IMG/VR virus record: IMGVR_UViG_3300032722_000004
Coordinates: 62,001 to 126,000 of that record
Length of the DNA: 64,000 bases
Source: a virus
Strand: one strand, 5' to 3'
Part shown: positions 1 to 55,067 of the stretch, in pieces
Numbering within the stretch: position 1 is the stretch's first letter
How the letters are laid out: every line of letters starts with the position of its first letter
Notes under the pieces: model-generated
The model's database searches: none
Told to the model about the DNA's origin: nothing
The model's input: the letters and a program-made list of their open reading frames with translations, nothing else
Made by a program: the position numbers and the translations under genes

Positions 1-1891
1 ATATTTCATGCATGGCAAATGCAGGATTAGTAGAAACTACTCCCGCGACCCTACTTGTTTCGGGGGAGGCTACAGTTACTTCTGCTGTTCCCCCAAACTG
101 TAATACGGTGCCGGGTTCATATGTGCTAATATCAGCGGTATAGTATTCTGCTAAGTCAGCGTAAGTTGATTGTAGTTTTGATCCGCTAGACAGGGACCAA
201 TTACCTGTGATTGTTCCGGCAGTTGTGTTTGCTCCAGTAGTAAGCGCGGTTGCTCCTACCGTTCCGGTATACGTAGGCAAATATGAGGCGACGTTTGAGT
301 TGCTATATGCGCCATCAAAACTAATTGCTACGCCATTGGCATAATAATAATTATCAGTCTTAATTCCGCCCGTTGTTACGTTTGCAGTAACGGAGACTGC
401 GGACAGCGTACCAACTGATGTGATGTTTGGTTGTGCATTAGTTGTCACTGTACCTGCTGTAGTTGCAGATGTAGCAGAACCACTAAGTGTTCCTACAAAA
501 CCAGTAGCAGTGATGTATCCATTAGCTAGGTTAGCGAAGAAGTTGGCATTTGATGCGTGTGTATAATTGCCATTCGCAGTAGACGAGATGAATGGAATAT
601 AATAAGTACCAGTTGATGCTGAATTATTAAGGACTGCGGCTGCATTCGTAGCACTAGTTGCAGAAGAAACTGTACCAGAAACATTGCCGCCTGCCACTGC
701 GTTTGCTGTCGTAGCATATGTGGCTAGACCTACCGCGCCTGAAACATTGGCGCCTGCCACTGCGTTTGCTGTAGTTGCGTATGCGACTGCACCCGATACG
801 TTTGCACCTTGAATGTTAGATAGGTTGTTGCCGGCACCATAATGGTTTCCAATTATATTTGCACCACTTATGTTTCCAGTAACTGTTAATGATGTTAGTG
901 TACCAACTGATGTGATATTTGGTTGTGCGTTAGTTGTTACCGTACCTGCGGTACCTGCGGTTGCAGAATTTAAGTTTGCTACTTGAGTAGTCGATGTAAC
1001 TGTAAATGGTGCAGTTCCGGTAGTTACATTTGACACAAATCTAGTAGATGTAACAATACCGTTGGAGTTGAGATTACCTACGTTTGCGTCACCATTAAGA
1101 GATAAAACCTTACCTGTGTAATCATAAACTAAGTTTGCATCTCCAGTTATCACGCTGCTGGCATTATATTGAATTGAAGTGTTTGAACCGCCAGCTGCTG
1201 CGGTTCCGCTACCCGAAGAAATAATAGCAGTTGCAATAGCGTTGGGAGAATTGGTGTAAGTTAATCCAGTTCCATTAACTCCAGTAGTTAAACCTGCATC
1301 AGTATACAAGGATACGTTACCAGACGAAGGGAAATCACTCGCAAGCTTAACATAAAATGTGTTACCATTAACATTGGCATTAGCAACACCGTTAACACCA
1401 CTAATAGTAACCTGCAAGTCATTTGTGTATGGAGTAGTATTTGCTACTGTCATGACAACAGGAGTATCATTGCTTAGAGCCACGATGTTGGTATAAAGTG
1501 AACCTTTTGGTGTCCAAGAAAGATTACCTAAACCATCAGTGCTTAACACATAACCAATAGCTCCGCCGGTAATTTTTACATTTGATATACTACCAAAATT
1601 TAAAGTGCCACCAGAAGACCCACCTGTGTTTACCCAACTACTTCCATTGTACGCTAGTACCTGTCCAGCAGTTGGAGAAGTAATTAAAAGGTTCCCAACC
1701 ACGCCATCAATTTGACTGAAGGCTATTTTCGAATAGCCAGTAAGAACTTCAATGTTTTCGTTAGGAGTAGTTTTACCTACAAACAAACGTTTATTATCTG
1801 TGGCCCAACCAAATTCACCTTCATCTAGTTGCGGTAGATCAACTAGGTTACCTGTACGAACTTGAAGTTTTGAAATTTGTAAAATCGACAT
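1..1891 (-). CDS. tail fibre-like protein, 3' end beyond window
   Basis: Open from an ATG at 1891 to the window edge (630 codons visible). The N-terminus carries the phrase LPQLDEGEFGWATDNKRLFV, typical of T4-like and cyanophage fibre proteins. The middle is Gly/Ser/Thr/Asn/Val-rich with repeats of the type ANVSGAV..ATTANAVAG and NAQPNITSVGTLT, as in trimeric beta-structured shafts. The visible C-terminal part has YADLAEYYTADISTYEPGTV followed by a G-x-x-R-V-A-G-V-V stretch, common in the tip regions of marine and freshwater myovirus fibres. It probably contacts the host surface; the receptor cannot be told. A late promoter lies directly upstream. Confidence 0.85.
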   Translation of the reverse strand, partial: MSILQISKLQVRTGNLVDLPQLDEGEFGWATDNKRLFVGKTTPNENIEVLTGYSKIAFSQIDGVVGNLLITSPTAGQVLAYNGSSWVNTGGSSGGTLNFGSISNVKITGGAIGYVLSTDGLGNLSWTPKGSLYTNIVALSNDTPVVMTVANTTPYTNDLQVTISGVNGVANANVNGNTFYVKLASDFPSSGNVSLYTDAGLTTGVNGTGLTYTNSPNAIATAIISSGSGTAAAGGSNTSIQYNASSVITGDANLVYDYTGKVLSLNGDANVGNLNSNGIVTSTRFVSNVTTGTAPFTVTSTTQVANLNSATAGTAGTVTTNAQPNITSVGTLTSLTVTGNISGANIIGNHYGAGNNLSNIQGANVSGAVAYATTANAVAGANVSGAVGLATYATTANAVAGGNVSGTVSSATSATNAAAVLNNSASTGTYYIPFISSTANGNYTHASNANFFANLANGYITATGFVGTLSGSATSATTAGTVTTNAQPNITSVGTLSAVSVTANVTTGGIKTDNYYYANGVAISFDGAYSNSNVASYLPTYTGTVGATALTTGANTTAGTITGNWSLSSGSKLQSTYADLAEYYTADISTYEPGTVLQFGGTAEVTVASPETSRVAGVVSTNPAFAMHEI

Positions 1892-7994: not shown

Positions 7995-8002
7995 TATTTA
8001 TG
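7995..8002 (-). promoter_or_regulatory. T4-type late promoter
   Basis: CATAAATA on the minus strand overlapping the stop codon of the gp41 gene, followed by AGGATC and the ATG at 7972. Confidence 0.65.
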
Positions 8003-9407
8003 ATTTCTTGAGAGAATTTAACAACGATTTTAATTGTGCAGATTTGACATCTGCAACTACGTGCTTTGGTGCTGCTTCTACAGTTGCATGTACCGCTGCG
8101 TCTACTGAGCCAACTTGGCTAGTTGTTTTTATTTTACTGATAATGTCATTAGCAGACGGTTGTGGTTTGTAATCATTTTCTGGATCTTCGTCGGTTATTC
8201 TCATGGTTTCGATGTTATATTCTAAGTCGATCTTTTGACCCACTCCAGTGGAACTACGAGACTTCATACACTGAATTTGATACTTTCCGCGTTCACGCAT
8301 TGACCTGGAAGTGAAAATACCAAACACATAGTCTGCTGTGTTGATCTTTGAAATACCACCAGCAATGTGTGAGTGATCGAACTCAATTTCTTCAACTGCC
8401 GAACGATTCAACTGCGATGCCGTAACCATCAGAACACCTAATTCCTTAGCTAGATTACGTAGTTCTTCTGAAACATACTTGTCCTTGATAAACTGATCAT
8501 TAGGATTTACTTTTACGGAGACTGGCATGACTAGATCGAGATAATCGATCATCACAAAATCTACTTTGATGCCAGTCTGAATCTGAACTTCTTTTAGATA
8601 GCTTCGAATATCATTTACGTTAGACTGTGCCGGAAGACCCTTAACACGATACTTACCAGACTTTCTAGCAACCATCTTGACTTTTAGCTCAGCAGTATCC
8701 ATATCCTTTCGAATATCTTTTGTACTCATGCTAGTCAACATGGCATCAGTACGTAGCGAAGTCAATTCTTCTGATAGTTCTAGCGTTATGTATACTCCGC
8801 TTAACCCTTGCTGTAGCCAGTTTAGAGCCAGATTCATCATCACCAATGATTTACCCGAGCCCGAACCACCTGCAAAGATGTTCAACTCTCCTCGACTCAT
8901 GCCACCATACATGACACGATCAAGCTGTGGCCAACCTGTGCTTACTTGACCACCTGCATTGAAGTATTTGTTTAGTCGCTCTTTTGGATCAGCAAAGTAG
9001 TCTGTACCCATATCTCGTTGCAATGAAATCTGAATAGCATCTTTTATTAATTTTTCAATTGGATTAAAGTCGCCCTTCTCTAGCATATCCGCTGCTTTAA
9101 GAATGGCTCGCTCAAGCTCTTGTCTCTTAGTGAATGATTCGAATTCTTCTAGAAACCAATCATAGTGTCCATCAGTAAGCTCTGGTATAGGTTCTATGCT
9201 AACACCAGTCGTAGCCTTGATCTGAATAGGATCCGGCATAACATTATATTTGGTAGCGTGTTCTACCAAGAATTCTGCGGATGCTCTCAGCGTCCTATCA
9301 AAATTATTTGGATTCATGATGTTTATGACGCGAGTATATAACTCGGCGTTGGTTACCATCATACGTAGAAAGAGCGTCTGTACGTCTATGTTATATTCTT
9401 TTGTCAA
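7998..9407 (-). CDS. 41: replicative DNA helicase, gp41/DnaB family
   Basis: 469 residues, near T4 gp41 length. RecA-type ATPase core: Walker A G-G-S-G-S-G-K-S at 180-187, TLELSEE after the next strand, Walker B F-V-M-I-D-Y-L-D near 284-291, then V-T-A-S-Q-L-N-R and the IAGGISKINTADYVFG segment typical of DnaB C-domains. The N-terminal about 130 residues are the helical interaction domain. It forms the hexameric 5'-3' helicase of the phage primosome with the primase gene just upstream, which it overlaps by 17 bases. The C-terminal 50 residues are a variable tail. Confidence 0.96.
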   Translation of the reverse strand: MTKEYNIDVQTLFLRMMVTNAELYTRVINIMNPNNFDRTLRASAEFLVEHATKYNVMPDPIQIKATTGVSIEPIPELTDGHYDWFLEEFESFTKRQELERAILKAADMLEKGDFNPIEKLIKDAIQISLQRDMGTDYFADPKERLNKYFNAGGQVSTGWPQLDRVMYGGMSRGELNIFAGGSGSGKSLVMMNLALNWLQQGLSGVYITLELSEELTSLRTDAMLTSMSTKDIRKDMDTAELKVKMVARKSGKYRVKGLPAQSNVNDIRSYLKEVQIQTGIKVDFVMIDYLDLVMPVSVKVNPNDQFIKDKYVSEELRNLAKELGVLMVTASQLNRSAVEEIEFDHSHIAGGISKINTADYVFGIFTSRSMRERGKYQIQCMKSRSSTGVGQKIDLEYNIETMRITDEDPENDYKPQPSANDIISKIKTTSQVGSVDAAVHATVEAAPKHVVADVKSAQLKSLLNSLKKS

Positions 9408-10368
9408 GCGTTCTCCGTTGCATCTTAAGCTTGATTTTGCTAGTAGTTGCGCTTTGCAATATACTTAGCAGAGTAGGAAGTCTTCCATACTTTCTAACAG
9501 CATCATTGGTGTCTTTTATTCCTTCGGCCCAATTTGGTATACTCACCTGAAAACCCAAATCTAGCGCTCGGTCACATATAGCTAGCCCTGTCTTATCCAA
9601 ATCAGGAACTACAATAATACGTTTATTAAGGCGACGAAGAACCTCTGCTTGTTCGTCGCTTATAGTATCATGAGTTAGTGCGCAGCCATTGATACTGAGT
9701 GCGTCAAATATGCCCTCAACAACGATACATACTTCCCATTCTGGTTTTTGTAAGTCGAAGCCAAATACGAATCCGGGTTGTTGCTCCTTAATATATTTGG
9801 GAAATCTGTCATCTAGATATCTGCTTATATGACCGACAACTTTATTATTGAAAGTATATGGAATGATAATTCTATTAGCATTTCTACCTTCATCTTTAGG
9901 AGTGATTAAAAATGGATAATCGTTTGGTTGAAATCCTCTTGTGGAAAGATAGTCTATAAAAGGTTTATGCTCAGGACAGGCAGAATCAATCATTATAGCA
10001 TTTTGTGGTAGCGGTATCTCATTAAATCTTACTTTCTTGAGATTTTTCTTTATCGTATATAGGTCTACTAAATCTCGATGCTGAAGGCTCTCAAAATTCC
10101 ATTTAGTAATCTCACTGTCACCGACACCGCACCAAAGCAATAATTGTCGTAGATTCTTACTAATTTGTTTACCTAAGGTAAATCCGCACTTGTAATCGCA
10201 GTTAAAGCAATGAAACGACCAGTTAACGTCTGTTATAAACTTGATTCCGCCGCGCATACGTTTATCTGCTTTATGACCGCGATGATGACAGCACGGTGCA
10301 TTAAAGCTAATCCAGCCACTACCGGTAGTCTTCTTTTTTCCCGGAATTACTGACAGAATATTAAACAT
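9391..10368 (-). CDS. 61: DNA primase, gp61 family
   Basis: 325 residues. N-terminal zinc-binding region with C-C-H-H-R-G-H at 26-32 and H-C-F-N-C at 53-57. A TOPRIM core has V-V-E-G-I-F-D-A-L-S near 215 and V-V-P-D-L-D-K-T near 255. It makes RNA primers for the lagging strand together with the gp41 helicase encoded directly after it. The ATG at 10368 has no good ribosome site. Confidence 0.95.
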   Translation of the reverse strand: MFNILSVIPGKKKTTGSGWISFNAPCCHHRGHKADKRMRGGIKFITDVNWSFHCFNCDYKCGFTLGKQISKNLRQLLLWCGVGDSEITKWNFESLQHRDLVDLYTIKKNLKKVRFNEIPLPQNAIMIDSACPEHKPFIDYLSTRGFQPNDYPFLITPKDEGRNANRIIIPYTFNNKVVGHISRYLDDRFPKYIKEQQPGFVFGFDLQKPEWEVCIVVEGIFDALSINGCALTHDTISDEQAEVLRRLNKRIIVVPDLDKTGLAICDRALDLGFQVSIPNWAEGIKDTNDAVRKYGRLPTLLSILQSATTSKIKLKMQRRTLDKRI

Positions 10369-10415: not shown

Positions 10416-11195
10416 TTAGCGAGATAGAATATTGGTGACCGCGCCGGCGTTGCTAGAAAATACCATACGAACAAACGGATGGAAACCTTTTATAGTGTAT
10501 CCAAAAGTATCAGTAACATCCTCGTATGTATTGTTAAGAATAGGATACCAATCAGCGTCAGGTTGGGTAGATCCTTCAATTGTCACATCACCATTGTATT
10601 GGTCATAGCTAGCCTGTATAGTGAGTATAGGATTGTCTTCTGTGTTTATGACACTACTATAGTATGCTCTTGAATTCGCAGGAACAGACCATTCAGCATT
10701 ATTGTTTAGATTAGGAAAGGCTTGACCAGACGGAATAGTAACATTGGATGAAGGGACAAATGCAGGAAGCACAGAATTGACAATATTCATATCGCCCCTT
10801 GCGCCTGCATTTTGATCCACGAAGACCGGATATCCGAAGTCTCCGATAGGAATCTCTAGAGAATAGTGACATTTCTGCGCAGGAATGTCCTCGATGTCAG
10901 CCGCATTTAAATTCAAAGACGCAATTCCAGTAAGAGGAAGATCCAAATCTAAGGCTTTGTTAATTAATACAGCATTACCGTCATAGCTGATAACTCTGCA
11001 GGTGATTGATTTACCTGTAATGTCGACGGGCTTTTGTTCCTGATTGAGAAACTGAAATTGGATTTTATTGTCCACACCTCTGTGTAGCGTTAGTGGTTTG
11101 GCGTACTGGGGCATGTATATTCTCGCTGAGTTACCTACTAGTAGGACAACAATCTGGCGTTGGACATACACGAATACTTGAGTACTATAAGCCAT
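10416..11195 (-). CDS. structural protein, baseplate/neck-like beta domain
   Basis: 259 residues. Residues about 30-115 (LTLHRGVDNKIQFQFLNQEQ, then ITGKSITCRVIS) resemble the beta-sandwich found at the start of baseplate upper proteins and virion decoration proteins. The rest is beta-rich with tryptophans (DADWYPILNN, GYTIKGFHPFVRMVF) like receptor-proximal or neck proteins. It is transcribed from its own late promoter, although it lies upstream of the primase gene. Exact place in the virion unknown. Confidence 0.65.
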   Translation of the reverse strand: MAYSTQVFVYVQRQIVVLLVGNSARIYMPQYAKPLTLHRGVDNKIQFQFLNQEQKPVDITGKSITCRVISYDGNAVLINKALDLDLPLTGIASLNLNAADIEDIPAQKCHYSLEIPIGDFGYPVFVDQNAGARGDMNIVNSVLPAFVPSSNVTIPSGQAFPNLNNNAEWSVPANSRAYYSSVINTEDNPILTIQASYDQYNGDVTIEGSTQPDADWYPILNNTYEDVTDTFGYTIKGFHPFVRMVFSSNAGAVTNILSR

Positions 11196-11283: not shown

Positions 11284-11664
11284 ATGAGCAGCAACGAATT
11301 TTTCAAGAAATTAAGTGAAAATCACCCGTTTATTTCGGTGTGTTCCTATGCGCAACAAGATTATGTGGGCATCATTCAAAACAGGGATGATATGGTCACT
11401 ACGCTCTATGACTATGGTGCAATAGTTCAGTCTGAGTTGCGAGCTAAGTTTTTAGAATTAGGTGATATATGGTGGTGGGAATCGAATAGATCGATCCCCA
11501 TCAACATATTTCTCAAAGAAGAATGGGCTATCTTTAGACCATACATTCGAACATTCAATAACAAGAGTTTGATCGTTCTTCACGGACCCGTAGTTAGCAT
11601 TACTGAATTTACTAAAAAGCGGGCTAAAAGAAAGAGCATCACACTGGTTAAGCGTTTGCCCTAG
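11284..11664 (+). CDS. unknown plus-strand protein
   Basis: 126 residues, one of only two supported plus-strand genes. It begins MSSNEFFKKLSENHPFISVC, has a W-W-W-E cluster in the middle (GDIWWWESN) and ends in a basic tail. Codon use matches the neighbours and the frame is closed by a proper stop overlapping the deformylase stop by four bases. No family recognised; the isolated orientation suggests separate control. Confidence 0.65.
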   Translation: MSSNEFFKKLSENHPFISVCSYAQQDYVGIIQNRDDMVTTLYDYGAIVQSELRAKFLELGDIWWWESNRSIPINIFLKEEWAIFRPYIRTFNNKSLIVLHGPVVSITEFTKKRAKRKSITLVKRLP

Positions 11665-12158
11665 CGGCCTTTTTTTGCGTCTTTGGTTCTCTTTTCTTTA
11701 GCCATTTTCATACTAAGATCACCCACACGCTGATCAAATGTTATTCCCATCAGATGATCATACTCATGAAGGAAAACACGGGCCATAAACCCAGAAATTT
11801 CTTCTTGTTTGGTTTCTCCTGTGGTCGTTTGATATTCAACCATGGCGCCGGCGGGCCTCTTTACCTTAAGGTAAAGATTAGGAAAGCTTAGACAGCCTTC
11901 AAGCGAAAAGTCTCGTTCCTCTGATAACGCGACAATCTTTGGATTGATGCAGACAACCATCTTAGTAAAGTTACCCATGATAAAGATACGCTTCTTAATT
12001 CCGCACTGCGGAGCGGCAAGACCGACGCCCCCGTTTTCAGTTAGAACACGAACCATTTCCTTTACTAGATCGGTCGGATCACCGTCAACTTCAAAATCCC
12101 ATAATTCGGAAACTTCTAATAGTTGCGGATCGTTTTCTTTTAAGAGTTCTAATTTCAT
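11661..12158 (-). CDS. def: peptide deformylase
   Basis: 165 residues with all three deformylase motifs: G-V-G-L-A-A-P-Q at 44-51, E-G-C-L-S at 87-91 (metal-binding Cys) and H-E-Y-D-H at 131-135 (two metal-binding His and catalytic Glu). It removes the formyl group from new N-terminal Met residues. Phage deformylases are known from cyanophages and other aquatic myoviruses, where they are thought to support rapid translation of phage proteins. Its ATG overlaps the stop of the membrane protein gene upstream. Confidence 0.95.
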   Translation of the reverse strand: MKLELLKENDPQLLEVSELWDFEVDGDPTDLVKEMVRVLTENGGVGLAAPQCGIKKRIFIMGNFTKMVVCINPKIVALSEERDFSLEGCLSFPNLYLKVKRPAGAMVEYQTTTGETKQEEISGFMARVFLHEYDHLMGITFDQRVGDLSMKMAKEKRTKDAKKGR

Positions 12159-13760: not shown

Positions 13761-13790
13761 ATAAATACTCCATTGTATGTAGTATTTATT
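13761..13790 (-). promoter_or_regulatory. late promoter folded onto endonuclease start
   Basis: AATAAATA (13790-13783) is a late promoter. ATAAATACT (13789-13781) is the exact complement of AGTATTTAT (13769-13761), which touches the ATG at 13760 and the GGAG ribosome site. Read-through mRNA would form a 9-bp stem hiding the initiation region; mRNA started from this promoter lacks the 5' arm. Confidence 0.7.
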
Positions 13791-14371
13791 TAAACTTTCT
13801 CACTGTTTTCTTTTAGTAAATTCATGTGTACCACCACTAAGTGACTGTAACTAATCGCGTGGCTACGTTTATAAGCATAACCAGTCTGATCCTTTTCCCA
13901 AACAGTCTCGTTTATTTCTTTCCAGGTCTTATTAAGCAAGTGTCGCTTCGCAGGTCTAATTGCTGCAAGAAACATGGCCAGCCTAGGAATAGAGTTTATA
14001 GGCTCCGGCATTCGTCTAACTGCTTCAAATTGGCTATTCAAGTGAATCAGTTGCTCAACGATATTTTTATCATTGAGCATTGACCAATCCGGTTCTTGCA
14101 TTAACCTAATTAGATGTTCTTCATCTTTGACCATATTATATACGTAAACATTCAGTAAATCAATCTTAAAATAGCCACGGGCTTCTGCTTCTGCATAATC
14201 GATTGCAGCCATGTCATACACGGGATCATAAGGAATATCTGTGGGATATATACCAGACGGGTGCTTTCTGATAGGATTGACTTTTCGCATTGCAGCATGG
14301 ACATGCTTAATCAGTGACAACACTGCGTCACGATTTCCCAAATCAATGTCAATGTCTGAATCTATTCTCAT
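13790..14371 (-). CDS. miniature DnaE-like (C-family polymerase) protein
   Basis: 193 residues, about one sixth of bacterial Pol III alpha. S-D-I-D-I-D-L-G-N-R-D at 5-15 matches the P-D-F-D-V-D-F..R palm motif with two catalytic Asp (here D8, D10). Y-D-M at 52-54 followed by G-Y-F-K-I-D-L-L-N at 66-74 matches the QYDM...GLVKFDFLGL segment with the third Asp (D71). F-E-A-V-R-R-M at 115-121 and F-L-A-A-I-R-P at 134-140 resemble the FQ.ES.GM and VALYRP motifs. G-Y-A-Y-K-R-S-H-A-I-S-Y-S at 164-176 matches YGFNKSHAAAY. PHP, thumb and tau-binding domains are absent. Its start overlaps the stop of a DEDD exonuclease gene. Polymerase activity is not established. Confidence 0.7.
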   Translation of the reverse strand: MRIDSDIDIDLGNRDAVLSLIKHVHAAMRKVNPIRKHPSGIYPTDIPYDPVYDMAAIDYAEAEARGYFKIDLLNVYVYNMVKDEEHLIRLMQEPDWSMLNDKNIVEQLIHLNSQFEAVRRMPEPINSIPRLAMFLAAIRPAKRHLLNKTWKEINETVWEKDQTGYAYKRSHAISYSHLVVVHMNLLKENSEKV

Positions 14372-14916
14372 TTGATATGAGTAAAGCCAGCCTTAATTAA
14401 CTTTTGGTAAGCACGTTGAACCACGATAGCCTGGCGTTCGGCATCTTCTACTGCTTTGTGAGTAGTGACGTGCCCGTCATCTTTCAACGACACACCTGCA
14501 AGATCGTAGATTGTACGACAGTCACGAATAGTCCAAAAGGGCCAGGGAATACGCATGTCTAATTCACGGAATGCATTCTCTGCTACCACCACATCGAACC
14601 CTGCGCCGTTGGACCAGATAGCCTGTTGATTCCAACAAAACTTGTACAGCTTTTCCATACATTCTTTGTAAGAGATTCTGTCCTGGTCTCCCATAGATTC
14701 GTTGATCGCTTCTGCGCTCTGAGTACTCCACCAACGAAGGGTGTCGTCACTGATGCTTCGACCAAAAGTATCTGTTTGTTCGTCAATGGTTGGACGAAGT
14801 TCTAGTTTCTCGATTACGCCTGACCCGCGCGGATCAAACTTAACGAGTCCGATAGTTAGAATGACAGTGGTTGGCGCTGTGTCCAGCGTCTCCATGTCAA
14901 GCATAATATGTGCCAT
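14368..14916 (-). CDS. DEDDh 3'-5' exonuclease (DexA/RNase T-like)
   Basis: 182 residues. Exo I is L-D-M-E-T at 6-10, Exo II is S-N-G-A-G-F-D-V-V-V in the middle, and Exo III is H-K-A-V-E-D-A-E-R-Q-A near 155-165 (catalytic His and Asp). W-W-S-T-Q-S and D-D-T-L-R-W are typical of the phage exonuclease group containing T4 DexA. It degrades DNA 3'-5'. The ATGA overlap with the DnaE-like gene downstream resembles an epsilon/alpha pairing, though a physical complex is only inferred. Confidence 0.88.
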   Translation of the reverse strand: MAHIMLDMETLDTAPTTVILTIGLVKFDPRGSGVIEKLELRPTIDEQTDTFGRSISDDTLRWWSTQSAEAINESMGDQDRISYKECMEKLYKFCWNQQAIWSNGAGFDVVVAENAFRELDMRIPWPFWTIRDCRTIYDLAGVSLKDDGHVTTHKAVEDAERQAIVVQRAYQKLIKAGFTHIK

Positions 14917-18431: not shown

Positions 18432-19268
18432 TTAGTAATCCAGTTTCTCTATAGTAAAGGGATATTTAGCCTCTTTATAAAAAGCCTTACGCTGGGTTAA
18501 ATGCCTCTTTGCAAACTTACACGTACTAGTAACGTCCCAAATCTGCACGTGGTCTTTGTCTTCTGCTTTTCTTATGCCACGACCAATGCTCTGTATAACT
18601 CGTACAAATGATTTGCCTGGTTCGATGAGAACCAAATTAAAGATTCGAGGAATGTTGATGCCCACAGCCGCAACACCATATGTAGCTACAATTATCTTAT
18701 CATCACTGATCGCAACCTCATCGTATTCTTCTTTGCGTTCTGTTAGTTTTGTTCCACCATTAACAAACACTGAATTTTGTAGTCTGCTGACTAGTTCTTT
18801 ACCTGCATTTACTCTATCAACCAAAACCAATGTGTTGCCTGTTTTATTGACGGCTCGTACAAGATCAGCGATTTTGTCTAAACGATGGCCGTCCTCTAGT
18901 AGAAACTTTAACTCGCTTTGATAGTTTGTAAACTCCGAAGTATCTTTAAGCTGCACTATGTTAACGTGACAACTTGCAAGAACACCTCGATCTTGTAGCT
19001 CACTTGCTGCTAACTTCCCGATGACTGGCCCAAGAGATACTAGAATCGAAGCGCGATCCATTTCGGCTTTAGGTATGGTACCGGTTAATCCCCAGCGAAT
19101 AGGAACATCAGCGAATACCCCAGTAAGCATTTGCTTGAGAACATCAGCTTTTGCCATGTGACAGTTGGATACTACTGCACCGTCAACTATGTAATTATGA
19201 TCATTTTCAATGTGGAGATTGAACACTTCGTCAGGTTTATCAATTTCGGTTTTTCTTATTAGCTTCAT
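18432..19268 (-). CDS. uvsW: UvsW helicase C-terminal half with split intein C-part
   Basis: 278 residues. The first 35 are an intein C-fragment (DEVFNLHIENDHNYIVDGAV, then V-S-N), and Cys36 begins the C-extein with C-H-M-A-K, completing the helicase DECH box started by the other gene. The penultimate Ser instead of His and a Cys at +1 resemble DnaE-type split inteins. The following 243 residues hold helicase motifs: L-T-G-T-I-P (III), T-L-V-L-V-D-R (IV), A-T-Y-G-V-A-A-V-G-I-N-I-P (V), Q-S-I-G-R-G-I-R-K (VI). UvsW unwinds recombination intermediates and controls late replication in T4. The ATG has AAGGAAG upstream. Confidence 0.93.
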   Translation of the reverse strand: MKLIRKTEIDKPDEVFNLHIENDHNYIVDGAVVSNCHMAKADVLKQMLTGVFADVPIRWGLTGTIPKAEMDRASILVSLGPVIGKLAASELQDRGVLASCHVNIVQLKDTSEFTNYQSELKFLLEDGHRLDKIADLVRAVNKTGNTLVLVDRVNAGKELVSRLQNSVFVNGGTKLTERKEEYDEVAISDDKIIVATYGVAAVGINIPRIFNLVLIEPGKSFVRVIQSIGRGIRKAEDKDHVQIWDVTSTCKFAKRHLTQRKAFYKEAKYPFTIEKLDY

Positions 19269-20160
19269 ATAACTTCCTTATCTTTGTTGCGGTTTTTTCA
19301 TCAAATCCAGAGAGGTCGGAAGGGCAGCTATTATTCAATAGCCATTCCCGTGTTGCGACAATGACACTAAACCCATTTTGATCTGCCCACTCTTTAAGGG
19401 CAACCATTTTTGCGTCAAATATCTTACCTCGGCATAACTCCGTCGGCTTCACTTCTACTACCTGTTTGGTTTTATAATCAACAAAATCAACTATGTATAT
19501 TTTTCGATTACCGTTGATAATGTATTCTAATCTCAATGTTTCATACGCTGCATCCTGATACATATACTGAAACAACGCTTCCCAACTCGATCTATATTTC
19601 TTTCTGTTAAACGTTGCTTCCCAGTGCGTGTTTCTATTGTTGGAATTTGGGGTAAAGTCTCCATATAAAATTTTATCCTTCATTATATCCGATCGGAATT
19701 TTTTATCCTGGTCAGACATTTTTACACCATACATACCGTTTGCTTCCCCGCTATTTACTCTAGCAGCAACCCGACTGTCGGTTTGTTTAGTCAAACCCTT
19801 CGCCCAAGAAGTTTGTAGTCCTGTTTTCCCTTTATTCCACGGCACACCTGTATTTAAATTGCGACTACTAAGTTCAGGATGTAATTTATGAACGGCTTCG
19901 CCACCAATTGCAGCAAGCTTAGCCTTGACTTCCCGATCAGATATTAATCCGGATAGAAGCAAATCCATATTCTTCACCCAAAGATCAGTCTTGGAATTCA
20001 TTACCCTCTTTTTAAAATTATTAAACTCGGGCTGTATTAATATCTCGCCGGTTGATAATTCTAGTGTTGATTTTCCAAAAGTAACGACCCTTACCTGTTG
20101 GTTATGTTCTGCTAGTCGCTTGTTTAACCGATCTTTCCATTGTTCATATGTAATTTTCAT
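19240..20160 (-). CDS. homing endonuclease between split-intein halves
   Basis: 306 residues from the ATG at 20160 (AGGAG five bases upstream); an in-frame ATG at 20181 lacks a ribosome site. The middle has G-V-P-W-N-K-G-K-T-G, a NUMOD3-like DNA-binding repeat. The catalytic half has SSWEALFQYMYQDAAYETLR, Y-I-V-D-F-V-D and V-V-E-V-K-P, the D...ExK pattern of the Vsr-like PD-(D/E)XK fold. This matches the published fractured-gene arrangement in which a Vsr-like endonuclease lies between genes for split-intein halves. Overlaps the IntC gene by 29 bases. Confidence 0.88.
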   Translation of the reverse strand: MKITYEQWKDRLNKRLAEHNQQVRVVTFGKSTLELSTGEILIQPEFNNFKKRVMNSKTDLWVKNMDLLLSGLISDREVKAKLAAIGGEAVHKLHPELSSRNLNTGVPWNKGKTGLQTSWAKGLTKQTDSRVAARVNSGEANGMYGVKMSDQDKKFRSDIMKDKILYGDFTPNSNNRNTHWEATFNRKKYRSSWEALFQYMYQDAAYETLRLEYIINGNRKIYIVDFVDYKTKQVVEVKPTELCRGKIFDAKMVALKEWADQNGFSVIVATREWLLNNSCPSDLSGFDEKTATKIRKLYEANKKNRN

Positions 20161-20187
20161 GAATACTCCTGCCTTAGCCATATGTAT

Positions 20188-21213
20188 TTATGTTTTATTT
20201 ACTATTTCGTGATTTTCAGTAAGTTCGTCAGCCCGGCACCAGCCTAGATTTGTTAGAAATTGATGATTTCCAGTAACCCTAATTACACGTCCGTTATCAA
20301 ATTCCATCTCATACATTTTTTCAGTGGACGACACAGTAAGATTGTGCTGTTGTTTTACCACTGTATCTTCCTTGAAGGTTCCGGACTGTTCACAATAATT
20401 GATTACTTTATCTCCGGCTTTAATGTCCTTGATGGGTACATATCCAACCGGGGTTAGCACCACTGATTCTCCGTGAAAACATTCATCAACCATGACACAA
20501 ACAACATCATCAAAGAAAAAGTCTTCCATATCAGGATCCTTGTTAGGATCTTGTTCAGCTTTAACCTTGAGCAAATTGTTCAGTGATTGCCATGTACAGA
20601 TGGTATGTGTTTTACCGTAATCCTTTCGATCACCAAAGTACACGCCTACCTCAAGTTGAAGATTTTTGTAATCTGCTTCGGTTTGTACTACCAACGACTT
20701 GTTGGGAACAACTACGATAGATCGACCATATGGCTCAATACTTTTAGACAATGCGGCTGTCATTAATGTCTTGCCAGCGCCTGTTGCTATTTCTTGAAGT
20801 GACTGTGGATTGGCTAAAAAGTTATTGACGATTTCCACTTGATAATCACGCAGAATTATAGGTTGACCTTCACGTTCATGTCCGGCGGGCCAGCATATGT
20901 TAGCAAAAGTATTCTCGTTTATCAGGTCAAACTTTAGGTCTAAGTGATTTTTTCTCTTGTCGTCTAGTACTATGTCATAGCCGTAATCGATTAGTATCGG
21001 AATGATTTCATCCAGTAGATTTAGATAGGTACTCCCTGCTAAAGAAAAATAGCTGATCTTACCATTCCATCTACCCAATCGAACTGCTGGTTGATATCTG
21101 GCACCGGGCTTCTCGTACTCAAATTTTTTCATGAGAGCGCGCCTTACATCTAACTCAAGTCCTAAAATTTTAACGTTTACTTCGTCCTTAATTTCTATTG
21201 TTGCTGTTTTCAA
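20188..21213 (-). CDS. uvsW: UvsW helicase N-terminal half with split intein N-part
   Basis: 341 residues from a TTG with AAGGA upstream. Residues 1-244 are the UvsW N-extein: L-R-D-Y-Q near 121, Walker A A-T-G-A-G-K-T at 143-149, V-V-V-P-N-K-S-L, and Walker B V-M-V-D-E ending at 244. Residues 245-341 are an intein N-fragment: C-F-H-G-E-S-V-V-L-T with P-I-K-D-I-K-A-G-D-K-V (block A) and R-V-I-R-V-T-G-N-H-Q-F (block B, TxxH). Reassembly by protein trans-splicing gives a 487-residue helicase with an intact D-E-C-H box. Confidence 0.94.
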   Translation of the reverse strand: MKTATIEIKDEVNVKILGLELDVRRALMKKFEYEKPGARYQPAVRLGRWNGKISYFSLAGSTYLNLLDEIIPILIDYGYDIVLDDKRKNHLDLKFDLINENTFANICWPAGHEREGQPIILRDYQVEIVNNFLANPQSLQEIATGAGKTLMTAALSKSIEPYGRSIVVVPNKSLVVQTEADYKNLQLEVGVYFGDRKDYGKTHTICTWQSLNNLLKVKAEQDPNKDPDMEDFFFDDVVCVMVDECFHGESVVLTPVGYVPIKDIKAGDKVINYCEQSGTFKEDTVVKQQHNLTVSSTEKMYEMEFDNGRVIRVTGNHQFLTNLGWCRADELTENHEIVNKT

Positions 21214-49873: not shown

Positions 49874-49881
49874 TATTTATG
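49874..49881 (-). promoter_or_regulatory. T4-type late promoter
   Basis: CATAAATA on the minus strand, 26 bases before the ATG at 49847. It lies directly after the tmRNA gene. Confidence 0.7.
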
Positions 49882-49920
49882 ACCTATAGGACGATATATC
49901 ATATTTAAAGGTTTTATAGG

Positions 49921-50250
49921 TGCTAGTTGATTCTGTTTCGAGGCTCAACTAGCAAAGCCCAAAAGACTTATGCGGCTAACGCAAGGCCTTCATATGCATC
50001 ATTTTCGTTTGCATTTAGTAATTTGAACTGATTGACGGTCGTTTCTTACCGTGTTCTCCACTTTCCTACTAGCCGTGAATCGATACTATACGCCCCCATA
50101 AGAAAACACACGATGCTCTCCCCGTCTTCTCGGCAGCTACCCCGATATCCCGCTTCACAGAGCCAGCGTCCTGTTATCGTGTGTTTACTGGTGGAGGCGA
50201 GGGGAATCGCACCCCTGTCTTCCCCGGTTTTAAGTCCGTATCAACGAACA
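49921..50250 (-). ncRNA. ssrA: permuted two-piece tmRNA (ssrA)
   Basis: Minus strand, in order: an acceptor piece ending C-G-C-C-T-C-C-A-C-C-A (50199-50189) with a T-arm AGGGG-TGCGATT-CCCCT; an intervening segment closed by a 10-bp stem (50185-50176 with 50114-50105); a coding piece starting GGGGGCG (50097-50091) that pairs with CGCCTCC, giving G3-U70, the alanine identity pair; a PK1-like ACGGT/ACCGT hairpin; and the tag frame 50012-49968 encoding ANENDAYEGLALAA then TAA. A hairpin (49954-49945 with 49930-49921) ends it. The 3' part before the 5' part is the circularly permuted form known in alpha- and some betaproteobacteria and cyanobacteria. It would rescue stalled ribosomes. The 5' limit is approximate. 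No protein gene lies in this 400-base interval. Confidence 0.92.
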
Positions 50251-50255
50251 AATAC

Positions 50256-50285
50256 TATTTAATCATATATGACATTGCATGTCAA
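50256..50285 (-). promoter_or_regulatory. sigma70-like promoter for tmRNA
   Basis: TTGACA (50285-50280) with TTAAAT 17 bases (50262-50257) or TAAATA 18 bases downstream, placing the start near 50250. The -35 overlaps the end of the 846-residue gene. Confidence 0.5.
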
Positions 50286-53585: not shown

Positions 53586-55067
53586 TTAAGAGCAGACTTT
53601 TACCCCATATAGTAGCTGGAACCGATCAGCATCTGCCCGGTCATTTACCATAGGCTCACCTCTAATATTTAGGGATGTATTAAGTAGCATTGGACAGCGT
53701 GTCTCATTATACCAACGTTCTAAGAGTCTTCTGATTCCCGAACCGTCTTTCGGTACTGTCTGTACACGAGAAGTCCCGTCAGCGTGAACGATAGCAGGAA
53801 ATAAGTCAGGAGCCCTACAAGGAGCGATGACTTGCATATACCTACTGTTGTTCCAACCGCAAGGCATATTAAAATAATCGCCACATAGTTCCTCCAGAAT
53901 GACCGGCGCAAAGGGTCTGAACTGCTGTCTTCGCTTGATTTCATTTACTGTATCCTTTATATCAGGGCCGCGTGGATCTGCTAATAGTGAACGATTGCCT
54001 AATGCTCTAGGACCGAATTCGGCTCGTCCGCTAGCAACACCAACCATCTTCTTAGTATACAATTGGTTAATTACATTGTTAATAGGATATTTGCCTTTTA
54101 TATTATATCCTAAAAAGGCATCGACCCAATTTACTCGTTTTCCATAACCTAATGCAGCAGCACCCAATGAGTTTCCTGCATCACCCGGATTAGGCATGAT
54201 CCAGATGTTATCGAAGTATCCGCCTAGATTACGATTTGCTGCACAGTTGAGTGCGACTCCTCCACCAAAAACAAGATTATGACTTTTACCGATATTAATA
54301 GCTTTTGCTATGACATGGTGTATCAAACTTTCAGTAAGTTCTTGAGTAGATGAAGCTATATCCATATTATCAGCATCTTTGAGGAAATCATCTCTCACCC
54401 CGGTATGTAGATTTTCTTTGAAAGATAATGTACCACTATTATGAATCAACGCTTTTTGAATCGTATTAACATGAATAGGTTTACCGTAAGCAGCCATTCC
54501 CATAAGAATATATTCTTCATCTAATGGCTTCAGTCCTACTTTCGCAGTCATAGCAGAATAGAATAAACCGATAGAATCTGGATATTGCTTTCCCCAAAGC
54601 CTCTTATATACGGCTCTACCGTTATCATCATAATACGCATCCCAGATAGTAATCGTATCTAACTCGCCGATAGCATCAATAATGACTACAGTAGCATGGT
54701 CAAATGGACTAGTTTGAAAACCAGCAGCAGCATGAGATAAGTGATGATTGTGTGTTTTCACTTCTCCGTCATGGCTAAAACGAACCATCATGTTTTTACC
54801 GATGACATCCTTTGCAGAGAAAGGTCCTAACTTCTGTCCAGCTCTGAGCTGGCGGATTACCTTTAACCAAGGCTTCTCATAATAATGAAGCTCATAATGC
54901 CCATCTATATATTTGTGGGCATCTTTTAATAAGCCTAAACAAAGATCAGCGTCATGCTTCTTCTTACTGTATCGTTCACTGTGGCCGGCGTATAGGATAT
55001 TGCCAGCATCATCAATGACACTCAATCCAGCGTCGTGAAACCCGCAACTGACACCTACATAATTCAT
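53586..55067 (-). CDS. carbamoyltransferase, NodU/CmcH family
   Basis: 493 residues. N-terminal kinase-like (TsaD-type) domain: G-V-S-C-G-F-H-D-A-G-L, H-N-H-H-L-S-H-A-A near 103-111 (metal-binding His), V-V-I-I-D-A-I-G-E. C-terminal domain: V-F-G-G-G-V-A-L-N, A-R-R/G-R-A-E-F-G-P-R-A-L-G-N-R-S near 345, F-R-P-F-A-P. It should carbamoylate a hydroxyl group of a sugar using carbamoyl phosphate. First large gene after the HNH insertion, next to sugar genes. Confidence 0.93.
   Translation of the reverse strand: MNYVGVSCGFHDAGLSVIDDAGNILYAGHSERYSKKKHDADLCLGLLKDAHKYIDGHYELHYYEKPWLKVIRQLRAGQKLGPFSAKDVIGKNMMVRFSHDGEVKTHNHHLSHAAAGFQTSPFDHATVVIIDAIGELDTITIWDAYYDDNGRAVYKRLWGKQYPDSIGLFYSAMTAKVGLKPLDEEYILMGMAAYGKPIHVNTIQKALIHNSGTLSFKENLHTGVRDDFLKDADNMDIASSTQELTESLIHHVIAKAINIGKSHNLVFGGGVALNCAANRNLGGYFDNIWIMPNPGDAGNSLGAAALGYGKRVNWVDAFLGYNIKGKYPINNVINQLYTKKMVGVASGRAEFGPRALGNRSLLADPRGPDIKDTVNEIKRRQQFRPFAPVILEELCGDYFNMPCGWNNSRYMQVIAPCRAPDLFPAIVHADGTSRVQTVPKDGSGIRRLLERWYNETRCPMLLNTSLNIRGEPMVNDRADADRFQLLYGVKVCS

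Follow-up and report, generated by a model that had tools for sequence, protein, structure and literature searches.

A gene for the probable C-terminal half of a split, minimal C-family DNA polymerase in a large T4-related phage

The window, the whole stretch of 64,000 nucleotides that we analyzed, is part of a virus record of 175,742 bases (G000), and matches to terminase, UvsX, UvsW, gp41 and gp61 inside it place it in a large T4-related phage. On its minus strand, a gene that starts with ATG in the open reading frame (ORF) list encodes a protein of 193 residues, and an exonuclease gene adjoins it (Table 1). The two genes overlap by 4 bp, with the + strand reading CAT at 14369-14371 for the start codon of the former and TCA (TGA) at 14368-14370 for the stop codon of the latter, which confirms the overlap described in an earlier note on this DNA. 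The motif positions given there for the 193-residue protein also agree with the ORF translation.

Table 1. Genes around the polymerase half in the window
Feature	Position	Strand	Basis or remark
gp41/DnaB-like replicative helicase	7998..9407	-	phrog_19, E 3e-74
gp61-like DNA primase	9391..10368	-	phrog_47, E 6e-36
Conserved neighbour, no assigned function	10416..11195	-	in 86/124 C-half loci, duplicates included
Small conserved opposite-strand gene near the polymerase half	11284..11664	+	in 106/124 C-half loci, duplicates included
C-terminal half (C-half) of split minimal Pol III alpha (C-family), 193 aa	13790..14371	-	D6/D8/D71 = E. coli D401/D403/D555
DEDDh 3'-5' exonuclease, Rv2179c-like, 182 aa	14368..14916	-	PF16473, E 4e-33; DEDDh read by eye

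In most loci of the window protein and its relatives, hereafter C-halves, the gene lies between uvsW and gp61/gp41 with the small opposite-strand gene adjoining; gp61 was present in 87 and gp41 in 73 of the 124 loci, many of which are cut short and 14 of which are second copies. In the stretch from the polymerase half to the primase genes of the window lies an ORF (11661-12158, minus strand) that resembles peptide deformylase, with the motifs GVGLAAPQ, EGCLSFP and HEYDHL. The uvsW gene of the window is found in two ORFs (20188-21213 and 18432-19268, minus strand) with an endonuclease-like ORF (19240-20181) between them. Since a single ORF matches both pieces in each of the loci L006, L008, L011 and L015, the stretch at 18432-21213 (minus strand) looks like uvsW with a homing-endonuclease-type interruption. 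Farther along the window, ARAGORN predicted a tmRNA gene at 49877-50282 (minus strand; tag ANENDAYEGLALAA, starred in the output), the sole tRNA or tmRNA gene that it reported there, and a Nol-like carbamoyltransferase is encoded at 53586-55067 (minus strand; phrog_1601, E 3e-91).

In Pfam, PF16473 was the only family that the adjoining exonuclease matched above the cut-off, and PF00929, the DnaQ/epsilon type, was not among its matches listed at E <= 10. The exonuclease gene lies within 2.3 kb upstream of the C-half in all 19 close relatives, five of which have an identical C-half. Single-sequence phmmer, which can miss diverged exonucleases and did miss one in RAS14, found it beside the C-half at none of 80 distant viral loci and none of 11 named-phage loci, and exonucleases of the RNase_T type are situated 2-5 kb from the C-half in GAP32, XacN1 and RAS14. 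Considering that the 19 close loci have the exonuclease and the 80 distant and 11 named-phage loci do not by this search, its pairing with the polymerase half appears, judged by gene order, to be a local arrangement and not the defining one. The alpha/epsilon-like coupling suggested earlier is therefore weak, as the neighbour is Rv2179c-like (PF16473) and not of the DnaQ/epsilon type, and the single-sequence search found the pairing in close relatives only.

The 193-residue protein is a homologue of the palm and finger core of bacterial Pol III alpha. It belongs to PHROG 11778 ('DNA polymerase') with an E value of 2e-55, and tblastn with it gave 63 phage records, 61 covering at least 80% of the query, with RaK2, GAP32, CBB, 121Q, Atu_ph07, PA5oct, XacN1 and SCTP-2 among the carriers. 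The 60 C-half records among the matches listed are genomes of at least 284 kb, bar three records of 86-110 kb. The window protein alone had no Pfam match at E <= 10, and phmmer against the PDB at E <= 10 returned three chance matches and no Pol III chain. When a C-half profile was searched against the PDB with hmmsearch, only Pol III alpha chains were matched, at E values of 1.8-1.9 that we do not count as significant, and 36 of the 65 relatives, but not the window protein itself, had a PF17657 (DNA_pol3_finger) match at E <= 0.1, the best being 0.0016. We then aligned a profile of 102 C-halves with one of E. coli DnaE and 80 gammaproteobacterial DnaE sequences, a shallow profile with Neff 2.1. 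Three collinear segments were obtained, in which C-half residues 35-142 pair with DnaE 509-642, 164-178 with 753-767 and 3-54 with 398-471. As their scores of 43.6, 37.2 and 26.3 exceed the maximum of 23.3 from 60 column-shuffled DnaE profiles, the likeness is beyond chance; a reversed profile reached 17.4.

In this alignment, D6, D8 and D10 correspond to E. coli D401, D403 and D405, and K69-I-D71 corresponds to K553-F-D555. K36-H37 matches the GKHAGG motif of DnaE, A136-IRP matches ALFRPGP, and YKRSHAISY matches FNKSHSAAY, with K168-SHAxxY lying on NKSHSAAY. According to a passage in Timinskas et al. (PMC3919608), D401, D403 and D555 are conserved across the C-family, and D405 is conserved in DnaE and replaced by Asn in PolC. 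Because the phage family has Asp at the D405-equivalent position, whereas PolC has Asn, it is DnaE-like there, as far as the alignment can tell. All three catalytic Asp residues are kept, as had been proposed, but the alignment and the conservation assign the first pair to D6/D8 and not to D8/D10.

The AlphaFold2 model of the C-half, built from a 65-sequence alignment from which the rows of loci L279 (in-frame stop) and L291 (stop close to where the matched range ends) were left out, had a pLDDT of 93.2 and a pTM of 0.84. In Foldseek, Pol III alpha ranked top with a probability of 1.00, though the E values were modest, the best being 2.4e-3 and none below 1e-3. VIA-align against 724 chains gave 14 best entries with Z of 6.4-9.5 and 176-190 aligned residues, and the next entry had a Z of 3.1. 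Eleven of the 14 are Pol III alpha, and the other three are labelled 'DNA polymerase' (9qrn, 9qpc and 9qrl), with matched numbering that resembles PolC. In E. coli alpha, the alignment spans residues 397..781. The C-family homology claimed in the earlier note is thus upheld by the profile alignment, PHROG 11778 and a predicted fold that fits Pol III alpha far above the other chains aligned.

The C-half is much smaller than the corresponding part of alpha. In the profile alignment, about 104 E. coli residues of the thumb region (406-509) are replaced by about 25, and about 110 residues of the fingers (643-752) are replaced by about 21. Pfam found no PHP domain in the 193-residue protein, and PF02811 was in none of 14 records. 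The clamp-binding region of alpha was not among the parts matched by the C-half in the profile alignment. The PHP and clamp-binding parts are accordingly gone, as had been stated, and little is left of the thumb region and of part of the fingers. The conserved neighbour and the small opposite-strand gene were considered as a missing thumb or fingers fragment and rejected, since their best scores in the DnaE comparison (15.1 and 20.1, respectively) were at the shuffle level.

The GS/GRGS triphosphate motif is also missing from the C-half chain and is present in a separate protein, the N-half. In passages of the corresponding phage papers, CBB_328 was noted as a truncated Pol III alpha in CBB (PMC5259590), and gp316 of Atu_ph07 is the N-half protein (PMC6102473). 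Loci from three viral contigs match the window letter for letter along their full lengths of 6.9, 7.5 and 12.6 kb. Two of these contigs, G001 (181 kb) and G003 (259 kb), for which 6.9 and 12.6 kb were compared, have an N-half gene, situated about 128 kb away from the C-half. This own-phage N-half has 169 residues, belongs to PHROG 11127 ('DNA polymerase') at E 2e-37 and matches PF07733 above the cut-off (38.7 vs 23.9 bits). The N-half profile matched E. coli alpha at 318-393 and ended there (hmmsearch, E 1e-4), and its hhalign score against DnaE was 53.0, the best of 60 shuffles being 25.0. The N-half model, for which the row of locus L047 had lost its first codons before folding, had a pLDDT of 89.9 and a pTM of 0.70 and aligned to E. 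coli alpha 279..393. VIA-align listed 16 entries with Z of 7.7-12.4, comprising 13 Pol III alpha or PolC entries and again 9qrn, 9qpc and 9qrl, and the best Foldseek E value was a weak 5e-2. The two halves tile the Pol III alpha palm (279-393 and 397-781), and the break lies between E. coli 393 and 397. Read from these sequences, the GRGS part of the putative active site is encoded in the second gene about 128 kb away and not in the window protein, which argues against the self-contained miniature polymerase envisaged earlier.

We found no fusion of the two halves. In all 132 phage N-half matches, the stop comes no more than 9 residues from the end of the profile, and the C-half ORFs are 187-232 residues from stop to stop, apart from the two broken ones at L018 and L279. 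The statement rests on ORF ends and lengths because the C-half profile at E <= 1e-5 misses the C-terminal part of E. coli dnaE, which only the N-half profile matched.

The N-half was found in 58 of 60 C-half records, 60 records being listed for each half, and since OP752703 (RAS14) was positive by profile, 59 of the 60 have both halves; these records include many near-identical phages or GenBank/RefSeq pairs. In PP728206 (109 kb), the C-half is present and the N-half was not among the matches listed. Neither single-sequence nor profile searches found the N-half in G000, the window's own record. G000 and five other contigs without the N-half (G002, G004, G005, G017 and G019) show no more than weak AAA similarity to the gp44 clamp-loader family (best E 1e-12 to 9e-5), whereas six N-half-bearing contigs match it at E 5e-71 or better. 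Because the contigs without the N-half also have no strong gp44 match, its absence from G000 and like contigs is best read as a sign of truncated records. Three of four tested C-half contigs of at least 200 kb carry the N-half, and the fourth, G017, also has no strong gp44 match. Conversely, among 11 N-half contigs of more than 100 kb, the C-half is present in all six of at least 200 kb and in none of the five shorter ones, four of which also lack the gp61 primase. In G009, the 110-kb viral contig of locus L048, the N-half, gp61 and gp41 are present with about 14-16 kb between the N-half and the primase/helicase genes, and the C-half was not found; this may be a phage with one half only or a contig with a part missing.

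The neighbourhood of the N-half is that of the clamp loader. Downstream of the N-half in G003 come a phrog_14844 gene, a GroES-like gene and gp44. An annotated clamp-loader gene lies a few genes downstream of the N-half in six of 11 named phages (CBB, RaK2, PBECO4, Atu_ph07, SCTP-2 and XacN1), and an AAA gene lies downstream in two more (PAC2 and Phosso). In Vibrio 2.275 and XaC1, the short stretch shown after the N-half contains no clamp-loader gene, and CM1 is unannotated. A B-family polymerase was found in 23 of 24 records, including G001 and G003, with G000 as the exception, so the coexistence of a C-family relative with a B-family polymerase, anticipated in the earlier note, holds. The B-family polymerase of G003, which lies outside the window on a contig identical to it where compared, is itself in two ORFs (559 and 414 residues), separated by a homing/HNH endonuclease ORF on the opposite strand (70500-79500, locus L339).

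To follow the residues of the two halves across the family, we used 102 C-halves and 113 N-halves, a set that omits C-half matches shorter than about 150 residues (the broken L018 and L279), N-half matches shorter than 80, E. coli dnaE and exact duplicates. D6, D8, D10, H37, G40, K69, D71, R139, P140, K142, H171 and Y175 are invariant in 102 of 102 C-halves, and GRGS is present in 113 of 113 N-halves; the invariance is partly biased, because one of the two C-half search patterns contained K-x-D and one N-half pattern contained GRGSS, and D6, D8 and D10 were in none of the patterns. Two pairs of relatives gave dN/dS values of 0.054 and 0.046, and for pairs with the window gene dS was saturated or no value was obtained. 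The conserved active-site residues and the low dN/dS speak for an enzyme under selection, as judged from the sequences. The C-half ORF is split in two by a stop in 2 of 124 loci (L018 and L279), which may reflect either sequencing error or decay, and the 133 N-half loci include 6 second copies.

Taken all together, the product of the gene in the window is probably the C-terminal subunit of a minimal C-family DNA polymerase made of two chains. By comparison, the C-half contains the Pol III alpha palm strands, the three metal-binding Asp residues and shortened fingers, and the N-half supplies the remainder of the palm, including the GRGS motif. Together they would form one active site, with the triphosphate of the dNTP bound by the N-half, and the template/primer and the two Mg ions by the C-half, and the resulting enzyme would add nucleotides to a primer. 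The C-half is probably active within such a two-chain polymerase, whose assembly, activity and role are inferred from the comparisons above. The contacts to template/primer and dNTP may be incomplete, given the missing thumb and finger residues. Because the enzyme has no thumb, PHP or clamp-binding tail, its processivity on its own would be low, and it most likely serves as an accessory polymerase beside the B-family gp43, in primer extension, gap filling or repair, much as an enzyme of Pol X size would, with replisome partners recruiting it. Considering that 23 of 24 records have the B-family polymerase and that PHP is in 0 of 14, gp43 is presumably the main replicase. We put at about even chances a more specific picture, in which one active site is made from two proteins, the GRGS half tied to the clamp loader and the metal-binding half to the primase-helicase, giving the phage a second, working polymerase, of the C-family, beside the B-family replicase; it would perhaps be the smallest C-family enzyme and possibly one that is assembled only when both replisome arms meet.

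The two chains could instead form a palm that does not polymerize DNA and serves as a structural or regulatory subunit of the replisome, comparable to ImuB, which is described in a passage of PMC12926913 as a catalytically inactive polymerase relative. The missing thumb and part of the fingers, the B-family polymerase that the phages already have and the conserved replication-gene neighbourhood would all suit such a subunit, but a scaffold would not need the metal-binding Asp residues, the Lys beside the third Asp and GRGS, all of which are invariant, and we regard this reading as unlikely. Retention of a Pol beta-type core after loss of the parts that grip the duplex could also point to a nucleotidyltransferase acting on another substrate, in template-free tailing or in primer or RNA modification. 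Against this stand the invariant RP and H-x3-Y finger residues, which are common to Pol III alpha, and the synteny with primase, helicase and clamp loader, so that such an activity of the pair seems distinctly improbable.

The resemblance of the C-half to part of the host enzyme might suggest that it acts as a decoy, binding or poisoning the clamp or the replicase of the host. Yet the parts that it matches do not include the clamp-binding region of alpha, the catalytic residues are invariant, and the gene adjoins replication genes in phages of different hosts, and we see very little chance that it is a decoy. The degenerate polymerase considered in the earlier note, as a decaying remnant of an acquired dnaE, would account for the absence of much of alpha and for the two stop-broken loci. 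It would not account for active-site residues kept in all full-length sequences, for dN/dS of about 0.05 in two pairs or for a similar length and the same split point throughout the family, and such decay is hardly credible.

If the N-half and C-half pair is active, it would set a minimum for C-family DNA synthesis and would mean that the palm of a polymerase can form in trans from two proteins. The two-chain polymerase, if real, would account for the presence of both polymerase families in large T4-related phages. In a passage of Iyer et al. 2021 (PMC7824862), such split versions were proposed to model early Pol III, and an active pair would offer a test case for that proposal. In the literature searched, which was mostly open with few subscription papers, we found no bench study of a split phage Pol III alpha; the question of activity can be addressed directly, since the constructs are small and the phages are laboratory-tractable.

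Among known proteins, PHROG 11778 and PHROG 11127 are the families of the C-half and the N-half, respectively, and differ from them by sequence divergence only. The palm fold, the three Asp residues, the D405-equivalent and the FRP and KSHxxxY-type motifs are shared with bacterial DnaE of E. coli, T. aquaticus (2hpi and 3e0d) and M. tuberculosis (7pu7), whereas the phage version consists of two chains and is without PHP, thumb, the parts past E. coli 781 and about 110 finger residues. Family X polymerases such as Pol beta are single chains with a Pol beta-type palm and with fingers and thumb unlike those of the phage pair. The total of 169 and 193 residues is about the size of a Family X enzyme, and the comparison with that family is an analogy of role only. 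The earlier note was unsure whether such a protein had been described; in the relevant passages of Iyer et al. (PMC7824862), a split minimal Pol III alpha had been reported in group 2.2 jumbo phages, which encode a B-family polymerase as well. That system and ours have in common a C-terminal Mg- and template-binding unit and an N-terminal NTP-binding unit encoded by separate, distant genes, a B-family polymerase alongside and the absence of the other Pol III domains. The identity of the window C-half with their C-terminal unit rests on this description and on shared phages. The present analysis adds the break point, the missing segments, the invariant residues, the synteny of both halves, the lack of fusions and the models. 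Compared with those passages, we found no difference in kind, the window C-half being one that adjoins an exonuclease gene.
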